From positions 5,584,001-5,648,000 of the forward strand of contig BSYQ01000007.1 in the NCBI GenBank assembly GCA_030272585.1: a stretch of 64,000 nucleotides of DNA, written 5' to 3'. Under the pieces are notes generated by a model. The model made no database searches and was not told the DNA's origin. It worked only from the letters and a program-made list of their open reading frames with translations. This document shows positions 2,866 through 12,789 of the stretch, in pieces. The stretch's first letter is position 1. Every line of letters begins with the position of its first letter. The translations under genes were made by a program, and so were the position numbers. The stretch is from Bryopsis sp. KO-2023 (Eukaryota; Chlorophyta; Ulvophyceae; Bryopsidales; Bryopsidaceae).

Positions 2866-2874
2866 CAATTAGGG
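2866..2874. repeat. Left 9-bp target-site duplication of the MULE
   Basis: CAATTAGGG, identical to positions 12781-12789 and in the same orientation. Confidence 0.75.
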
Positions 2875-2950
2875 ATGTACCCCCATATCTGCAAATCCCA
2901 TATCCGACAGTCCCATGTTCGAAAGTCCCGCGAACGCTAAAGTCCGACAT
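2875..2950 (+). repeat. Left terminal inverted repeat of the MULE
   Basis: Reads inward through CCCATATCCGACAGTCCCAT and then TCCCGCGAACGCTAAAGTCC. The same blocks occur in reverse complement at 12691-12780. The two ends differ by a few substitutions and by one internal repeat unit of about 30 bp that is present only on the right. Confidence 0.8.
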
Positions 2951-4923
2951 ACACGCATCAATGTTCTGACTCTGCCTTCGTCCATTCCGCCTCAGCAACC
3001 CACCAGAATCGGAACAGCATTCCATGTCTGGCCATGCCCCAAACTTTTCTCTTTCGCTCGTCTGCGGTCCGCAACCGTTTCCGCTTCGCAAAAGGAGCGC
3101 GCGCCACCGTCGCCGACGCCACTGCGCGTCTCTACCTCTCCAACTCGCTGTCGCTGAGGTGGTCGTGTCGCGTCCATGTCGAATGCTGCCGAAACCCTCT
3201 GCGACCTAGGGTAAGCTCCATCTCTTTTTCGTTTTCGCTCTCTTCGCTCGTGCCCCGTGTAGAAATCACTTTCCCTGTCGCCGTTCCTTGCTCGTGTGTG
3301 TTTCTGTGTGCTGTGTGGTGTACAGGATTGCGTGCTCCTGTCAGGTTGTACGGCGTATTCCTGGGTTGACACTCCCTCTCCTCCATGCACTCTCCCTGTT
3401 GGGGAACAATGGTTTGTTTGTTCCTTTTCTTCCACTCGATTTGGTTGTCCCCTGCTCTTCTCTCTCTTGCTATTTGGTCTGCCTTTTCTTCTTTTGTTTG
3501 GTTTCCTTGACTGTCTTGGTGTCCTGTTTCCTCTCCTTGCTCATGTGTGCATCTGTTTGCTTGGTGGTGTGCAGGGAATGTGGAATGAGTCGCCTCCAGG
3601 AGCTAATCTGACCTTCAATGAATCCAGAGCTCGATTGATGTCATCCCATATATAGTGATGTGTATATCCACCAACAATTTTAAACGAGAAAGAAGCGCTG
3701 CATTTGAAAAGAATTCCTGGGCTGGGGGGGGATCGAAGAATGTGGTATAAAAGCGAATCCAAACCAGATGAGTGAAAGGATCCATCAGAGCCCGACAAGC
3801 TTCTTGGAAGCACACCCAGAAGCAATCCCAGAATAGAAAGCGCGCTCCTGGAGACCGCATCTCGCTGATACGGAAGAGAAGACCAGGAACCCCCAAATTA
3901 GGTACTGCTGGTTGAATATCCTCTTCGAAAAATTCATTTTCCCTTGTAGTAAAGCTCTCTTGCTGAGTCCAGTTCGTCGTACACAATCCCCAACCAAGAA
4001 CAGCAGAAACCCTGCCATCAGTCCGTGTAGTTTTGTCCTTAGTGTCCCCCCGACAGTCCCTTCCAGGAAGGAGACCCAACTGGTGGTAGTGGAAACCCTT
4101 AGCCTGTGGGTGTTCAGTGGAGCCTGTAGAGACTCGCTGCTTGGATGTGCCTGTTTGATTAATGTGTTCCCTTTTCTGCTCTCTCTCTTGTGAATTTGAA
4201 TGTCTTCTCCAGTGCTGTTGTCCCGAATCCCTTGTATCCCTGTTTGCCGTTGCGTGTATGTCTGGTGTGGTACCCAGCGTTGAATTTGTATGTGTCCTTG
4301 TGTGTCCCCCAGATGTCGATGAAAAGGGTAATGATCTTGTTTCGTGCTTCAGGTGATGTACAGGTGGCCATGCCCCATCAGCAACGTGCCCGAAAGAGGT
4401 TGCCGCCCAAGAACTCCTGCGGAGCAGACCACCGCGAGGGGCCGTGCCCCATCAGCAGCATATCAGGTCGCCGCGCGAGAACGGATGCGCGTGACACACA
4501 GTAGTAAATCTTCTTTCATACAGGTTGGGTTCTTGTTTCCTCCCATTCTTGTATACTTGTTCATCAAATTTTTGCAGACCATTTTGCAGTCTATTTTGTC
4601 AGGGGGGGACACTTGCTTGATTTCATGTGATGTTTTTATTGTTTTCTTTTGGGACTCATTTTTCCCTTCCCTTTCGTACTTATTTTTTCAACCAGCAAGG
4701 TTTGTTTAGCCCCCACACACACACAAACAGGAGTGCAATGGGGGCGAAGCATTTGGCCGATCGAAAATATGGCAAAAATACGGGACAGGGGGCAGTAAAC
4801 CGAAACCATCGCAGCAAGGCACCTAACCGCGCTGTCCTCAAGTGAAAGTAGAAGTGATTGGAGCAGTGGGCGTTGATTTTTGAGGGGTGGAGGGGAAGTG
4901 ACGTAGTGTGTGTTGTGGGGCAG

Positions 4924-5414
4924 GAATGGGAGGCGCTCAGGCCCAACAGCTTCAGGGTGCTAATTTGTTGTTGAGCATGCTGAGGAGAGCAACACGTCCT
5001 GCTCAGCAGGCCAATCCCTTGGTAGCGATGGCCGCTGCGCAACAGCAACAACAGCAGCAACAGCAACAGGAATTGCCAATTGCAATTACACCAATTGCAG
5101 CAGCAGTTGCAAGTAAGTGCATTCGGAACACTACCCCCAGAATTGTATCATGCTACCAAAAGAATAAAGCAACAAACAAAATAATGTGCCAACCCTGTCA
5201 ACTGAATACGTTTTTTTTTCCTTTTGCCAAGGGGGGAATAAATAGTAATAAAATACTTCTCTCAATTTGTGTCTAGGCCCAGAGAAAAATGGTATACGAC
5301 CATCCTGCAGTTGCACGCTGCAGGGAGTACCTGTCAATAGTTCACAGTTCACTGACTGGTTCAGTGTGCCACAGTTTGGTGGTGGTCGAAGTGAAATACA
5401 GTGGCGTTAGATAA
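4924..5414 (+). CDS. Putative second MULE gene, polyglutamine protein, partial model
   Basis: Not recognised. One exon starts after a CAG acceptor near 4923 and ends at a strong donor (GTAAGT) near 5111. It encodes a Gln/Ala-rich stretch with about ten consecutive glutamines. A second exon starts after the TAG acceptor at about 5277 and runs open to a TAA near 5412, encoding about 45 residues. Upstream exons may lie between 3000 and 4900, where donor-like and acceptor-like sites occur, but I could not join them into one frame. It is convergent with the transposase gene and inside the transposon, so it may be an accessory transposon protein. The end of this exon overlaps the unit of the 120-bp satellite array at 6246-7165. 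Confidence 0.35.
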
Positions 5415-5506
5415 CTAAAAACAAAATAATTTTTTTTTTGGGGTTTTTTCCCCTTCTTAAAAAAACAACTGTTGCAGCGCGTCCCAATCGTCACAACAAC
5501 CCTTAA

Positions 5507-8500
5507 TCATTCGTTAACTCTTTTCCCCCAAGACTCCCTGACCATATCTAAAGCGAGTTGTCCTCTCAACGCGCTAAGATTATCGGTAGTGCATGGTACG
5601 AGTGGTTTCCCGGAAGCGAGTCTGTCTCCAAACCAGCACACGAATACGCCACAGCTCCAAGCGTCGTCTTGGATACGAGCTTCGTCAAGTGACCTGAAAA
5701 CCCATTCTTTCTCCTTGTTCAACAGAGGGCAAAAGTCCAACATCGCGTCGATTACGTTGTCCATGAATTCTCTGTCTGTATGTCGTGCACTGTCGATGAA
5801 GAACCCAAGTGCCTCTTTGGGTTTCAGTGCGAACAGGATCCTATAAAGAAATGTGAAAAAATCAATAGTATTACAAGTGGAAGGATACTATAAAAAATAT
5901 AGTATTCTAATACACTAGAATATTAGAATATTAATATAGTATTTTGTATATTGTATTAATAAAAATAAATAAATAATAATAATAATTAATAATTAATTAA
6001 TAATAACAATAATTAATAAAAAAACATATCTTTTCAGCATTTTTACCAGTGCTTATTCTTTTGGTTCAGGGGAATGAGAAGAAGGGATTTGCTGGATATG
6101 GAGTGGTGATCCATCCAAGAAGAAGCTCGGTCGACACCATCGTCCATAACAAGCTTCGAGAGGGCGCAGCTCATTGCGGTAATGTCGGGCCCAGCTCTTG
6201 CAGCCCTATCCAGCTACGAAAAAAATCCACGAAAAACTCTTTTTCTAAAAGATAACTAAAAACAGAATAATTTTGGGGTTTTTTTTTCCCTTTTTTTCTT
6301 TAAAAAAAAAAAACTGGTTGGTTCAAAGTGACACAGTTTGGTGGTGGTCGAAGTGAAATACAGTGGCGTTAGATAACTAAAAACAGAATAATTTTGGGTT
6401 TTTTTTTCCCCTTTTTTCTTTAAAAAAAAAAAAACTGGTTGGTTCAAAGTGACACAGTTTGGTGGTGGTCGAAGTGAAATACAGTGGCGTTAGATAACTA
6501 AAATCAGAATAATTTTGGGTTTTTTTTTCCCTTTTTTTCTTTAAAAAAAAAAACTGGTTGGTTCAAAGTGACACAGTTTGGTGGTGGTCGAAGTGAAATA
6601 CAGTGGCGTTAGATAACTAAAAACAGAATAATTTTGGGGTTTTTTTTTCCCTTTTTTTCTTTAAAAAAAAAAAACTGGTTGGTTCAAAGTGACACAGTTT
6701 GGTGGTGGTTGAAGTGAAATACAGTGGCGTTAGATAACTAAAAACAGAATAATTTTGGGTTTTTTTTTCCCCTTTTTTCTTTTAAAAAAAAAAAACTGGT
6801 TGGTTCAAAGTGACACAGTTTGGTGGTGGTCGAAGTGAAATACAGTGGCGTTAGATAACTAAAATCAGAATAATTTTGGGGTTTTTTTTTCCCTTTTTTT
6901 CTTTAAAAAAAAAAAACTGGTTGGTTCAAAGTGACACAGTTTGGTGGTGGTCGAAGTGAAATACAGTGGCGTTAGATAACTAAAAACAGAATAATTTTGG
7001 GGTTTTTTTTTCCCTTTTTTTCTTTAAAAAAAAAAAACTGGTTGGTTCAAAGTGACACAGTTTGGTGGTGGTCGAAGTGAAATACAGTGGCGTTAGATAA
7101 CTAAAAACAGAATAATTTTGGGGGGTTTTTTCCCCCTTTTTTCTTTAAAAAAAAAAACCTGGCTGGTTCAGTATCAAAGTGAATAATCTGAATATATATT
7201 TCCATGAATGAATATTCGGGATCTGGAATCGTTGGCTGTTGAACTCCAACGAGTCATTCGGTGTGGGTTTCATTGCAGTGACATGGCCATCAGGGCTATC
7301 AAGATATTCTGGAAACATGCAGTGTGGCCATTCCCTATGCTGCCTCCGAGGCAGGTCCAACTGTTGGTCAGGCAAGGAGACGCCGAGCAAAACCATGAGG
7401 TTCCATGACCCCTGGAAAAAAACTGAAGACGTGCACTGCTCGGAAAAAGTAAGGGTTGTTTGGGGGGCTATAGAGCACAGTACAACTCAGCCACAGAAAA
7501 CGTATTAAAAAAAATCCCTAGAGGCGAAAACACCGTTAATCTCCCCCCTAACATTGTCTTTACTGAAGGGGGAGTTTAGAAGGGAGGGATGAACGTGCTT
7601 GCTGCCAATGCCGAGGCTTTGTCTCGTTCAAATTAATTTGGATTAATTTGGCAGAATGCTGTTTAGCAGAAAATTGCAGCCCGGGGGGAAATACGGTTGA
7701 AAGGAAAATATAGACACCTGCATTTATGGGGGAGTGTTAGGCCATGTAGGTTTTGATACAACCTAAATGGCCAAACACTCCCCCATAAATACAGGTGTCC
7801 ACATTTTCTTACACATAGTACATTTCTTACCCCATAGTCGATCACGGTATCGTTGAGCCATCCCCCCCCCCTTGTCGTTTTTAGACTTCTGACGGTCAAC
7901 AATTCTTTCGTGGGCAAAAAGCCATAAACTTCGGCGTCATCGGCTACGGTAAAGGCGCGTAAAATTTCAGTTCCCAAATTTTGGGGGGTGAAATGGTCGG
8001 GGGCTTCGATCCACTTCGTCGAAGGTGGAAGGAAATTTTCCAAATCAATCTCCGTAACCTGTATTTCTCGTGCCAAGGAACAAAAAAAATATTAAAAATA
8101 AAAATAACTTTTGCATACAATATTTAAATCATTTGGATACAAAAATTCTCGGTTGTTTCTTCGACCCTTGTACGGACCTTCGTTCCCAAACCCAAACCGG
8201 TTGTGTGGGCTTCTCCCGAACCCGAACCCGATGCTGGGGCTGCTCCCCAACCCGAATCTGTTGCCGAGGCTGCCAAAAAACCCGAACCCGATGCTGGGGC
8301 TGCTCCCCAACCCGAATCTGTTGCCGAGGCTGCCAAAAAACCCGAACCCGATGGTGGGGCTGCTCCCCAACCCGAATCTGCTGCCGAGGCTGCCAAAAAA
8401 CCCGAACCCGATGGTGGGGCTGCTCCCCAACCCGAATCTGCTGCCGAGGCTGCCAAAAAACCCGAACCCGATGGTGGGGCTGCTCCCCAACCCGAATCTG

Positions 8501-11500
8501 TTGTCGAGGCTGCCAAAAAACCCAATCCCGATGTTGGGGCTGCTCCCGAACCCAAACCAGTTGCAGGGGCTGCCAAAAAACCCGAACCCGATGTTGGGGC
8601 TGCCAAAAAACCCGAACCCGATGCTGGGGCTGCTCCCCAACCCGAATCTGTTGCCGAGGTTGCCAAAAAACCCGAACCCGATGCTGGGGCTGCTCCCCAA
8701 CCCGAATCTGTTGCCGAGGCTGCCAAAAAACCCGAACCCGATGGTGGGGCTGCTCCCCAACCCGAATCTATTGTCGAGGCTGCCAAAAAACCCAATCCCG
8801 ATGCTGGGGCTGCTCCCGAACCCAAACCAGTTGCAGGGGCTGCCAAAAAACCCGAACCCGATGTTGGGGCTGCCAAAAATCCCAAACCTGCTGCTGGGGC
8901 TGCCCCCAAACCCAAACCCGATGTTGGGGCTGCCAAAAAACCCAAACCCGTTGTTGGGGCTGCCCCCGAACCCAAACCCGATGCTGGGGCTGTCAAAAAA
9001 CTCGAACCCGCTGCTGGGGCTGCCAAAAAACCCAAACCTGATGCTGGGGCTGCCCCCGAACCCGAACCCGCTGGTGGGGCTGTTGATAAGGGAGGATCAG
9101 GAACCGTAGCTGGTGCTGGTCGAGTTTTTCCCCCCCGAAACTGCTCGGAGCCACCCTTATCAAACCCGGGTACATTATAGGCGACACCTCTCAAGAACTT
9201 TTCAAGAGTGATGTCGCCTTTAAGGAATTGCTCGTGTAGTCGAATAAGACGTTCGTCTACACGAGCGTAGGATTTTTTTTTCCTTTTAGGAGCTGCCCCG
9301 GCCTCCAGTTGTGCTATCAAAGCACCGGCGTCACTTTCCTCCTTCTGAAGTTCATCGAGGAGCTCCCATATGTTAGGGTGTGTTTTCCCCAGTAACCCGT
9401 TTAATTTTCGATGATACCCTTCTGCGAAATTTATCGTTCGGTGGTCGAAGCGATTATGAACATTCCAAATGCCTACCCCTCCCCGGTGATTCAGCCAATT
9501 AACTCGGAAATACTCCAATAATTGGGTAATTGGGGTCACCGAACTGTTTGAGCGTTGTGAAGCTTCCTGGACAAGAATAGCAAATCCTTCGTTCACCCGG
9601 GGGGGGGGCAAGAATGCGAGAGCCATCAGTTTCTTAACAAACACCCGGAAGACTTCATCGCGATTGTATTGGGTCTTGAGACCTAAATCACAAACTCGCC
9701 GCCATATACACTGCGTGAAGTGAAAGTAACAACCGTGTATCGGAACATTCCACACCCCCCGGGCCGCCTCAATAGCGGCGTGCTCAAAATCGAGGACCAT
9801 CTCCGTGGGCTGGAGATGGCGGAGGGTTTCAAACAATTTTCTGTAACTCTCCTCATCCTTGTTTGTAAGGAGAGCAAACATGCCGGGCACGGCGTTTCTG
9901 CCGTGCACCGAATGTATAATGTATATCTGTTGGAAAAAACGAGGCGCCGCTCGAAATGTGCCATCGAGAAACCAAATTTCCTGATCCATGCGCGCCAAGC
10001 TTGAGGGAGTAGCGAATATAATTATCCTTTTCTCCCCTTCCATAATATCAGCATGCAGAAAATTTTCACCGGACAAAGACTTTGCCCATTTCCCTTTCCA
10101 AAACAAAATTAAATAAATTTTACAGAAAAATTCTTTTGAAAAATACAAGCCTCGTATAAATTTCCAGCCCCCAAACCTGATTTCTAATGAAACAAAATTG
10201 AATTCGCAGAAAAATTTTAATGATTTTTTTACTTTTATATGAGAATATATAACTTTTTCTCTTATTTTGTACAAGAGGTTTTTATTTACCCTCGTAAATA
10301 ATTTTTGCTTTTTTTATTTCTAAAAAAAAAAATCCGTACTTACGCGAGTAAATAAAAAAAAATAACTAATGCCTCACCTTCAATTTTCAGAGCACCAAGG
10401 GACGAGGGGATACCCGGAAGTACGGCACGACGGGCGCGATACATCCTCTTTGAGAGGGTGCGAAAATCAGGTAGGGCGTTGACAACACCTAATGCGGCAG
10501 ATTCGATGCGTGCTTCCCTATATATTTTAGGGACTGAAAAAAAAATCGTTTTAATTGACCCTTGAAATTTTCGGAAAAGAAAAAAGGCAATATGGCCATC
10601 TTTGGGTTCGAATCCCAAATGCCTTAAAAAGAAATTTTCTGTGGATCTTAGCGTATTTGTTTCCAAAAAATAAAAAAGGAAAAAATATATATATATTTTT
10701 TTTAGTTCCCTGAAATATGAGATATCCACAGAAAATTTCACATGATTTTTTACTGAATCTGAGCATCTTTTTTTTTCAGAGTGCAATAGTCACAAAAAAA
10801 AATAAATATAAGAAATTTATTTTAAAAAAAGGCAATATGGCAATCTTTGGGTTCGAATCCCAAATGCCTTAAAAAGAAATTTTCTGTGGATCTTAGCGTA
10901 TTTGTTTCCAAAAAATAAAAAAGGAAAAAATATATATATATATATATTTTAGTTCCCTGAAATATGAGATATCCACAGAAAATTTCACATGATTTTTTAC
11001 TGAATCTGAGCATCTTTTTTTTTCAGAGTGCAATAGTCACACAAAAAAATAAATATAAGAAATTTATTTTAAAAAAAGGCAATATGGCAATCTTTGGGTT
11101 CGAATCCCAAATGCCTTAAAAAGAAATTTTCTGTGGATCTTAGCGTATTTGTTTCCAAAAAATAAAAAAGGAAAAAATATATATATATATATTTTTTAGT
11201 TCCCTGAAATATGAGATATCCACAGAAAATTTCACATGATTTTTTACTGAATCTGAGCATCTTTTTTTTTCAGAGTGCAATAGTCACACAAAAAAAAAAA
11301 ATACAAGAAATTCATTTTAAAAAAAGGCAATATGGCAATCTTTGGGTTCGAATCCCAAATGCCTTAAAAAGAAATTTTCTGTGGATCTTGGCGTATTTTT
11401 TTCCAAACAATAAAAAAGGAAAAAAAATATATATATATTTTAGTTCCCTGAAATATGAGGTATCCACAGAAAATTTCACATAATTTTTTACTGAATCTGA

Positions 11501-12179
11501 GCATCTTTTTTTTTCAGAGTGCAATAGTCACACACAAAAATAAATATAAGAAATTTATTTTAAAAAAAGGCAATATGGCAATCTTTGGGTTCGAATCCCA
11601 AATGCCTTAAAAAGAAATTTTCTGTGGATCTTAGCGTATTTGTTTCCAAAAAATAAAAAAGGAAAAAAAATATATATATATTTTAGTTCCCTGAAATATG
11701 AGGTATCCACAGAAAATTTCACATAATTTTTTACTGAATCTGAGCATCTTTTTTTTTCAGAGTGCAATAGTCACACACAAAAATAAATATAAGAAATTCA
11801 TTTTAAAAAAAGGCAATATGGCAATCTTTGGGTTCGAATCCCAAATGCCTCGAAAAATACACTTTTTTTTTGATATTTTTAACAATCACATACCTGGAGT
11901 GGTCTCAACAGCCGCTCGCTTTTTTATAGCCCCTTCTAGTCGTAAGACCTGAACCCTGGAAACGTCACCCGGGTGGTGATGGTCTTTTTCGTTTGTTTGG
12001 ACCACTAAAGGCGTTTTCGATTTGATGCTGCATCTAGCTTCGCACTCCGTTTCGACGCAAGTGAAATAATGGGGGAGTTCTGGTTTTTTTCCGTTCGTCC
12101 GACGGAACCAATATCCATTCTCAATGTCGAAGAGAAGTTCCCCTCCTTTTTTCCCTTTTCCTAACTCCCACCGACTCAT
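5507..12179 (-). CDS. FLYWCH-MULE transposase-Ulp1 protease fusion
   Basis: Six exons, 12179-11894, 10533-10378, 10093-8178, 8058-7831, 6213-6047 and 5840-5507, join in compatible phases to 1,028 codons plus a stop. Residues about 20-70 form a FLYWCH-type zinc finger (Cys41, Cys46, His67-69). Residues about 148-380 are a MULE transposase core with candidate DDE residues Asp191 (LDGTF), Asp249 (VLDFEH) and Glu372 (FAEGYH), plus the family's Cys-His motif near 269-272. A Gly/Ala/Ser-rich tandem-repeat linker follows, to about 786. The C-terminal part is a C48/Ulp1-type cysteine protease: WLND at 853, HW with His917, Asp934, Gln975 and Cys981 in QDDAWSCGVFVC. The His-Asp and Gln-Cys spacings (17 and 6) match Ulp1. 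Start: the ATG at 12179 precedes the zinc finger, and an upstream in-frame ATG at 12383 is possible. The role would be DNA cleavage and strand transfer, plus probable cleavage of SUMO-like modifiers. Confidence 0.85.
6246..7165. repeat. Tandem array, about 120-bp unit, 8 copies
   Basis: The word CAGTGGCGTTAGATAAC recurs every 120-121 bp (near 6361, 6482, 6601, 6722, 6842, 6963 and 7084). Each unit contains a poly-T block, a poly-A block and GTTTGGTGGTGGTCGAAGTG. The array lies inside the intron between exons four and five of the transposase (7830-6214). A diverged founder-like copy sits at 5355-5475, overlapping the end of the plus-strand gene. Confidence 0.9.
7703..7810. repeat. Foldback hairpin in a transposase intron
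   Basis: ATTTATGGGGGAGTGTT and its flanks are repeated in reverse complement around a short loop near 7755, giving arms of roughly 45-50 bp. It lies just downstream of the exon-four donor (7830). It may be a tiny foldback element nested in the intron. No target duplication is obvious. Confidence 0.7.
8203..9090 (-). repeat. 60-bp coding minisatellite in the transposase linker
   Basis: A 60-bp unit (and shorter 30-bp half-units), about 14 repeats, within exon three of the transposase. It encodes Gly/Ala/Ser-rich repeats of the type SGLGFLAAPxxGLGSGAAP. Because the unit length is a multiple of three, all copies keep frame. The opposite strand is also open in two frames for over 300 codons, which is a by-product of the repeat. 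Confidence 0.9.
10556..11856. repeat. Tandem array, about 245-bp unit, 6 copies, with tRNA T-arm-like hairpins
   Basis: Six copies (period 243-248 bp) lie in the first intron of the transposase (11893-10534). Each has a perfect hairpin TTTGGGTTCGAATCCCAAA (starts 10601, 10846, 11093, 11341, 11584, 11827). Most copies flank it with GGCA and TGCC, which can also pair. GGTTCGAATCC matches the RNA polymerase III B-box consensus. No A-box or full cloverleaf is present. Confidence 0.85.
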
Positions 12180-12690
12180 CGCTTCAACGCAAGGAACGAA
12201 TCGAACCTTCCCACTCTTAAGAGTGCAGCCACAGTTGCGTCCAATATGTACATGATCGAAGTTTCCGACTGTAAGAATTCCACAGGATCGACGTTTCTGA
12301 CTGGAACAACTCCACAGGCTCGAAGTTTCTGGAAGATGTACGTCCACTCGCATTGCCTGGGATTCGAACTGTCGCGCACTCACAACTGTTCGACGCCGTC
12401 ACTGATCGCCCAGGAGACGACTGCCCCCCCCCCCTCCCTCGACGACGCGCATCGATAATGCTTGGGAGGCGGGAGGTGGAGGTCCTGGTATACAGGTTTT
12501 GGCGAGGCGAGGGGATGTCTGCAGGGGTAGACCTTCGCGCACGACGCACGCTCGGACTGCTCGGGTCTGTTATGATGCTTCCATCTCACGCGTTGCTTCG
12601 GTCGTGCGCCGAAGACAGAAACTGCAGGGCACGGAAACTTGTGTCTGTCGGACTCTTGCGCACACGTCTGTGTGTGCTGGGGGGATATAT

Positions 12691-12780
12691 GTCGGACTTT
12701 AGCGTTCGCGGGAGATGCGGACATGGGACTGTCGGATATGGGATTTGCGAACATGGGACTGTCGGACACGGGGTATAATC
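12691..12780 (-). repeat. Right terminal inverted repeat of the MULE
   Basis: Reverse complement of the left end. ACATGGGACTGTCGG occurs twice in tandem here (12720-12734 and 12750-12764), so this end carries an extra sub-repeat. Confidence 0.8.
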
Positions 12781-12789
12781 CAATTAGGG
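12781..12789. repeat. Right 9-bp target-site duplication of the MULE
   Basis: CAATTAGGG, identical to positions 2866-2874, immediately outside the right inverted repeat. Confidence 0.75.

Follow-up and report, generated by a model that had tools for sequence, protein, structure and literature searches.

A Mutator-like transposon of the green alga Bryopsis that probably encodes a transposase fused to a Ulp1-like protease

The minus strand of a 64,000-nucleotide stretch of contig BSYQ01000007.1 (assembly GCA_030272585.1, positions 5,584,001 to 5,648,000; hereafter the window) carries a gene in which the exons of a Mutator-like element (MULE) transposase are followed by those of a cysteine protease resembling Ulp1. 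The DNA comes from Bryopsis sp. KO-2023, a green alga of the Bryopsidales whose strain is termed long-term cultivated in a published title and abstract. An earlier note on this stretch had read the two enzymes as one protein, joined by a repeat-encoded linker. Here, we find that the gene sits inside a real transposon which, judged from its DNA and its copies, has probably moved recently and probably encodes the fusion. According to passages of two papers (PMC2836005, PMC2528002), unrelated DNA transposons have acquired Ulp1-like proteases on repeated occasions. In the Bryopsis element, which has well-defined ends, small derivatives and intact copies, the protease probably lies in cis on the transposase, so that a role of deSUMOylation in transposition or anti-silencing can be tested.

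Rebuilding the gene out of window DNA reproduced exactly the six exons that the earlier note had joined without a stop, giving 1,028 amino acids (aa) on the minus strand with all five introns bounded by GT-AG. The edges of the first two exons recur in a diverged relic elsewhere in the genome (L066; 43% and 53% identity). Exon 3 runs from the transposase core into a 296-residue Ala/Gly/Ser stretch, most of it encoded by a minisatellite with a 60-bp unit in 14.4 copies and 0% indels.

Both enzymatic domains score above their Pfam cut-offs in the fusion protein, in the kind of profile search that the earlier note had proposed: MULE PF10551 with E 1.1e-6 (29.4 bits against a cut-off of 27.6) and Peptidase_C48 PF02902 with E 8.4e-11 (42.5 bits against 20.7). 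The FLYWCH zinc finger fared less well, with a PF04500 score below the cut-off (E 0.042, 14.5 bits against 23.6), but the Cys/His pattern of exon 1 aligns with that of homologues, and four of the six homologues scanned exceed the FLYWCH cut-off. The seven catalytic residues named in the note (Asp191, Asp249, Glu372, His917, Asp934, Gln975 and Cys981) all lie at the positions given there. D191, D249 and E372 show no variation in any of the 14 rows of an alignment of the first 450 residues with 13 of 32 homologues. The C48 part matches the yeast Ulp1 structure 1euv (E 6e-8, 35.4 bits) with the catalytic His, Asp, Gln and Cys corresponding and at Ulp1 spacing, and also aligns with SENP1, 2, 3 and 5. 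MULE transposases cut at terminal inverted repeats (TIRs), and Ulp1/SENP enzymes process and remove SUMO.

The transposon reaches beyond the gene (Table 1). Two more full-length copies, about 99% identical and 9,057 bp each, lie on contigs C10 and C5; similarity among the copies ends at window positions 2874 and 12780, where the element ends start GATGTACCCC and GATTATACCCC. Each of the three copies is flanked by a perfect 8-bp duplication that differs from site to site (CAATTAGG, AAGAAAAC and AGTACAGG), and recent movement is likely because of these perfect duplications together with the copy identity. PF10551 with its DDE residues, imperfect TIRs and 8-bp duplications identify the element as a MULE. 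The stop-free 1,028-aa frame, the five GT-AG introns and the catalytic residues are kept in all three copies, and the survey of further copies proposed in the earlier note thus recovered the same open frame in both C10 and C5, whose proteins carry 4 and 5 amino-acid differences from that of the window, respectively. The window copy is 850 bp longer; alignment offsets change by about 358 bp within the intron 4 array (121-bp unit) and by about 487 bp within that of intron 1 (247-bp unit).

A 24-mer shared by both inverted-repeat ends occurs 38 times in the genome at up to two mismatches, while the same pattern read backwards occurs nowhere in it. These sites comprise the ends of the three full elements, two pairs with a spacing of 2.5 kb, one with a spacing of 12.4 kb and 12 pairs spaced 265–321 bp that resemble miniature inverted-repeat transposable elements (MITEs), with two singles. 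One derivative of about 2.6 kb (L061:1723-4327, C1:1961.2-1963.8k) retains exon 1 as well as the final 65 codons of exon 6, with order and strand unchanged. The element ends appear to have been mobilised repeatedly, because the 24-mer recurs in full elements, in pairs, in MITE-like pairs and in this derivative. Another short derivative, at C10:2325.5-2328.0k, has kept the same two parts of the gene, zinc-finger exon and protease end, and the two derivatives might give rise to a short regulator product.

Table 1. Features of the transposon and its gene, in window coordinates.
Feature	Position	Strand	Remarks
Whole transposon	2874-12780	-	9,907 bp; reaches beyond gene span 5507-12179
Left target-site duplication	2866-2873	.	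CAATTAGG; identical 8 bp on right
Left inverted-repeat end, imperfect	2874-2965	+	begins GATGTACCCCC; contains 24-mer TCCCGCGAACGCTAAAGTCCGACA; inner limit approximate
Right inverted-repeat end, imperfect	12679-12780	-	begins GATTATACCCC; same 24-mer as left; inner limit approximate
Right target-site duplication	12781-12788	.	CAATTAGG
Exon 1	12179-11894	-	residues 1-95; FLYWCH-like zinc finger, Pfam below cut-off; edge matched by 43%-identical relative L066
247-bp tandem array	10580-11850	-	5.2 copies, inside intron 1
Exon 2	10533-10378	-	residues 96-147; exon match in L066, 53% identity
Exon 3	10093-8178	-	residues 148-786; MULE DDE core (D191, D249, E372), KRKKK at 417, then linker
60-bp minisatellite	8219-9082	-	encodes most of the Ala/Gly/Ser linker, about residues 491-786
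Intron 3	8177-8059	-	junction deciding fusion versus separate gene; fusion donor AAG/GTCCGT after 8178, public-model donor after 8119
Exon 4	8058-7831	-	residues 787-862; C48 domain starts, WLND motif
Extra 43-aa exon	7411-7283	-	in public gene model only
121-bp tandem array	6250-7170	-	7.6 copies, inside intron 4
Exon 5	6213-6047	-	residues 863-917; catalytic His917
Exon 6	5840-5507	-	residues 918-1028 and stop; Asp934, Gln975, Cys981

Whether transposase and protease share one reading frame depends on how the transcript is predicted to be spliced, and here a public gene model disagrees. Searching proteins with the C48 part returned a single cluster among 1,144 candidates, P0001, which comprises BSKO_11591 and BSKO_05981 from two contigs of Bryopsis sp. 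KO-2023 and whose pieces match the C10 and C5 copies exactly. In window-equivalent coordinates, this model starts at an ATG at 9175, reads 24 residues out of the transposase frame, skips 85 bp, traverses the minisatellite in a third frame, quits exon 3 after 8119 and continues through exon 4, an extra 43-aa exon, exon 5 and exon 6. The two models concur on exons 4, 5 and 6 and differ in the start, the frame of the array and the extra exon.

We favour the fusion over the separate gene on several grounds. The fusion frame is without Met from residue 305 to 875, and exon 4 therefore has no start of its own. By a simple position count, as distinct from a trained splice model, the fusion donor of intron 3 ranks first among the seven GT sites in 8110–8210, with 7 of 9 positions pairing with U1 versus 5 of 9 for the public donor. 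The extra exon damages the Ulp1 match, cutting the 1euv score from 35.4 bits to 20.5 bits (E 0.0018) with loss of the WLND region, and the public model is therefore probably wrong at least there. Its ATG overlaps out of frame with the last part of FLRGVAYN (residues 447–454, positions 9197–9174), a stretch of the transposase that by eye looks like the C-terminus of homologues such as P0006. In a further MULE family of the genome (L057) the transposase frame likewise runs stop-free into a Gly/Ala/Pro repeat of its own.

A number of observations weigh against the fusion. P0001 presents the protease as a separate gene of 609 aa, reads the array in another frame and leaves exon 3 after 8119. An open frame resulted from 21 of the 216 junction combinations tried, which makes joinability alone weak evidence, and the array is stop-free in two of its three sense frames. 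Codon-position counts for the array are flat in the fusion frame (48/41/46), and neither these counts nor the synonymous and nonsynonymous ones make any frame stand out. By Pfam C48 score neither model is preferred, with 42.5 bits for the fusion and 43.5 for the public protein. PF02902 is named for none of 32 MULE homologues, whose length range of 264–840 aa excludes 1,000-aa fusions, and relics elsewhere in the genome carry MULE or C48 pieces, never both within the stretches examined. What the earlier note called a single fused polypeptide is thus upheld in its domains, residues, exons and orientation and as the better gene model, against a public annotation (BSKO_05981/BSKO_11591) that splits the gene.

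The reading to which we give roughly even credence is that of an apparently autonomous, recently mobile FLYWCH (Phantom-like) MULE whose one recognisable gene yields a single transposase-Ulp1 protein, with the tethered protease removing SUMO and so raising transposition. In this model, the N-terminal zinc finger would bring the protein to the element ends, the DDE core would cut and join DNA, and the flexible Ala/Gly/Ser stretch would act as a tether between transposase and protease. The C-terminal Ulp1/SENP-type cysteine protease would strip SUMO or a similar tag either from its own transposase or from host factors for silencing or repair that assemble at the element ends, and the result would be more transposition. 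Splicing and translation of the fusion, like deconjugation of SUMO by the tethered protease, are predictions drawn from sequence.

The public gene models would instead fit one element making two proteins, with the protease translated separately and the transposase ending after its repeat tail at a stop near 8126. The array is open in the public-model frame as well, the GT after 8119 could serve as a donor, and alternative use of the two donors could yield both forms; it is possible that both are used, giving a transposase-linker protein alongside the fusion. We nevertheless consider two separate proteins somewhat unlikely. BSKO_05981 and BSKO_11591 are one identical sequence from two copies and hence not independent, the public ATG on out-of-frame transposase codons requires an 85-bp intron by the array and the weaker donor, and the extra exon lowers the 1euv score as described. 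Nor was a public model for the transposase part found in the protein searches. In one of these, transposase residues 140–450 against proteins of 565–1800 aa gave none of 3,787 candidates at E<=0.01, a weak null that missed P0021 (799 aa, E 2.4e-37), a transposase homologue known from a separate protein search. The lack of a public transposase model suggests that this part was masked as a repeat and the public model thereby shortened.

Two further explanations assign the protease another fate. Ulp1-type enzymes cleave SUMO precursors behind a Gly-Gly, and a GG at residues 468–469 stands just ahead of the linker with none inside it, so the C48 domain could cut the fusion, for example between FRGG and K (residues 466–470), and free transposase and protease from a self-processing polyprotein. 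We regard this as very improbable, given that GG occurs at six listed positions in the fusion protein and that Ulp1 enzymes work on folded ubiquitin-like partners, of which Pfam shows none upstream. That the element merely carries a captured piece of a Ulp1 gene as a passenger, with no role in transposition, seems to us improbable too, if less so. MULEs frequently capture genes, and the grapevine authors, in the relevant passages, offer repeated ULP1 transduplication as one explanation (PMC2528002). Set against this are the intact catalytic residues of all three copies, an exon 6 ratio of nonsynonymous to synonymous change (dN/dS) below 1, and the lack of a close host donor: among the best 21 candidates (E<=1e-3) of a genome search with C48, none was one of the nine other PF02902 places outside this family.

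Comparison of the full element with diverged copies gave dN/dS values of 0.40–0.46 for exon 1 (3 loci) and 0.18–0.47 for exon 6 (4 loci), which suggests that C48 is constrained and coding, on small numbers. Working against this and the fusion alike, the values rest on 11–17 changes each, with some loci being parts of one copy, and an exon 5-like relic gives 0.51 while an exon 4-like relic is saturated.

Joined transposases and proteases have precedents, and the earlier note's statement that such a fusion was not described proved too strong. Passages of PMC2836005 report Ginger1 transposases, in Hydra, with a C-terminal Ulp1 or OTU domain in the same polypeptide. As predicted for the Bryopsis element, a DDE transposase and a C-terminal Ulp1 share one polypeptide, with introns in some; Ginger1 differs in its Gypsy-integrase-type core and its other zinc finger, and no minisatellite linker is mentioned in those passages. 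Consistent with the difference in core, no integrase family matched the Bryopsis fusion in Pfam at E<=1. In the same passages the authors raise a role of Ulp1/OTU in transposition as a possibility, Ulp1 domains from Mutator transposases are aligned according to a figure legend, and Mutator elements with Ulp1 are cited from hydra, lancelet, maize, rice, melon and Arabidopsis. Passages of PMC2528002 describe grapevine MULEs with ULP1 downstream of the transposase open reading frame (ORF) in both orientations and mention rice proteins with Tnp2 and ULP1 (CACTA). These Mutator and ULP1-MULE elements share with ours the pairing of MULE and Ulp1, in some families downstream and in the same direction, but the passages of both papers name no alga among the hosts and mention no repeat linker.

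The closest functional lead that we found for the Bryopsis fusion appears to be the Ulp1-bearing VANC of Arabidopsis. In KI-MULE/KIU elements, VANC genes with captured Ulp1 belong to an anti-silencing system, the function of Ulp1 itself being called unknown in the pertinent section of a 2026 review (PMC13317346). A Ulp1 domain in a MULE and a possible anti-silencing role are common to both systems (passages of PMC13317346, PMC2528002). In KI-MULEs, however, Ulp1 runs in reverse to mudrA and the ends are non-TIR (passages of PMC2528002), whereas the Bryopsis protease lies on the same strand, between TIR ends and probably joined to the transposase; with C48 on the transposase strand and TIR ends present, the element is not a Kaonashi (KI) MULE.

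Among MULEs with repeats, sections of PMC6446971 tabulate TIR ends and duplications of about 8–11 bp, and describe Phantom, with FLYWCH, 8–10 bp duplications and, in aphid members, a minisatellite downstream of the transposase ORF; in Rehavkus they place the minisatellite at the C-terminus. A PHD finger, a Rehavkus trait, gave no Pfam match on the fusion at E<=1. Phantom shares with the Bryopsis element a MULE core, 8–10 bp duplications and TIRs (sections of PMC6446971 and PMC3169594), and its FLYWCH finger has a FLYWCH-like counterpart in Bryopsis that scores below the Pfam cut-off. It differs in that the aphid repeat follows the ORF, whereas the Bryopsis repeat is itself coding and has C48 after it. 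The words Ulp1 and protease do not occur in these two Phantom texts, nor do ulp, protease, peptidase, OTU, FLYWCH or fused in an arthropod MULE survey (PMC13359780). A FLYWCH-MULE with a coding minisatellite and a C-terminal Ulp1 in a green alga was not found in the literature searched, a search with most subscription journals outside its coverage. Each ingredient is already known; what is new is the combination of FLYWCH-MULE, minisatellite linker and C-terminal Ulp1 in a green alga.

Other MULE loci of the genome gave no C48 match better than E 1.5 (L056–L059) or none at E<=1 (L060), none of three older MULE relics (L065–L067) had one at E<=0.1, and eight pattern matches in viral contigs included no relative. 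Decayed C48 pieces resembling exons 4 and 5 lie in two 6-kb loci on contig C2 (L062 and L063), where no MULE match was better than E 0.34 and the L063 piece is followed by GA, with no GT donor. C2 (8.8 of 91 Mb) holds 20 of 51 transposase matches, short and many with stops, and may be a transposon graveyard.

In another MULE family of the genome, at C8:2513343-2518686 (L059:343-5686), Pfam finds a FLYWCH exon (E 5.9e-5) and a MULE exon (E 7.4e-14), along with a Pro-rich repeat. In this family (C8:2513001-2521000), an ORF on the same strand (C8:2517826-2518686) comes after the repeat and contains, besides two CxxC pairs, a Cys box (GFNNKQNSCGHDS) and a His box that we take to be USP/C19-like motifs; it matches Pfam UCH at E 0.04 and USP21 structures at E ~1, both weak. 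These matches offer a lead that the C8:2513-2519k family may carry a USP-like domain in the position equivalent to C48. A second copy of the family (L064) stops matching inside the linker and neither supports nor refutes the USP link. L057 (C13:1127001-1135000, minus strand) is a FLYWCH-MULE family in which a Gly/Ala/Pro repeat extends the transposase frame; a later ORF there has 200 residues without a Pfam match. One of the 32 homologues, the metagenomic P0027 (532 aa), combines RING, MULE and FLYWCH and is a possible ubiquitin-ligase transposase. We tentatively propose, while rating it as rather doubtful, that the MULEs of Bryopsis constitute a modular series, in each member of which a FLYWCH-MULE transposase and a fast-evolving coding repeat are joined to exchangeable ubiquitin/SUMO enzymes (Ulp1/C48 or USP/C19-like), tethered so that deconjugation would occur at the element ends, with P0027 as a conjugating counterpart.

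Elsewhere within the window element, nine other ORFs (eight of them in 2874–5500) match no Pfam family above its cut-off. A Gln-rich plus-strand ORF at 4902–5273, with GTAAGT near 5112 and likewise no Pfam family over its cut-off, could be the first exon of a second gene. A different type of element in the genome also bears Ulp1: at L016, L019 and L020 (contigs C15, C1 and C10), C48 domains stand beside GCR1_C-like stretches that score just under the cut-off (E 2.9e-4 in L016 and 7.4e-4 in L019, with L020 like L019 by eye), and we presume that these elements are perhaps Crypton-like.

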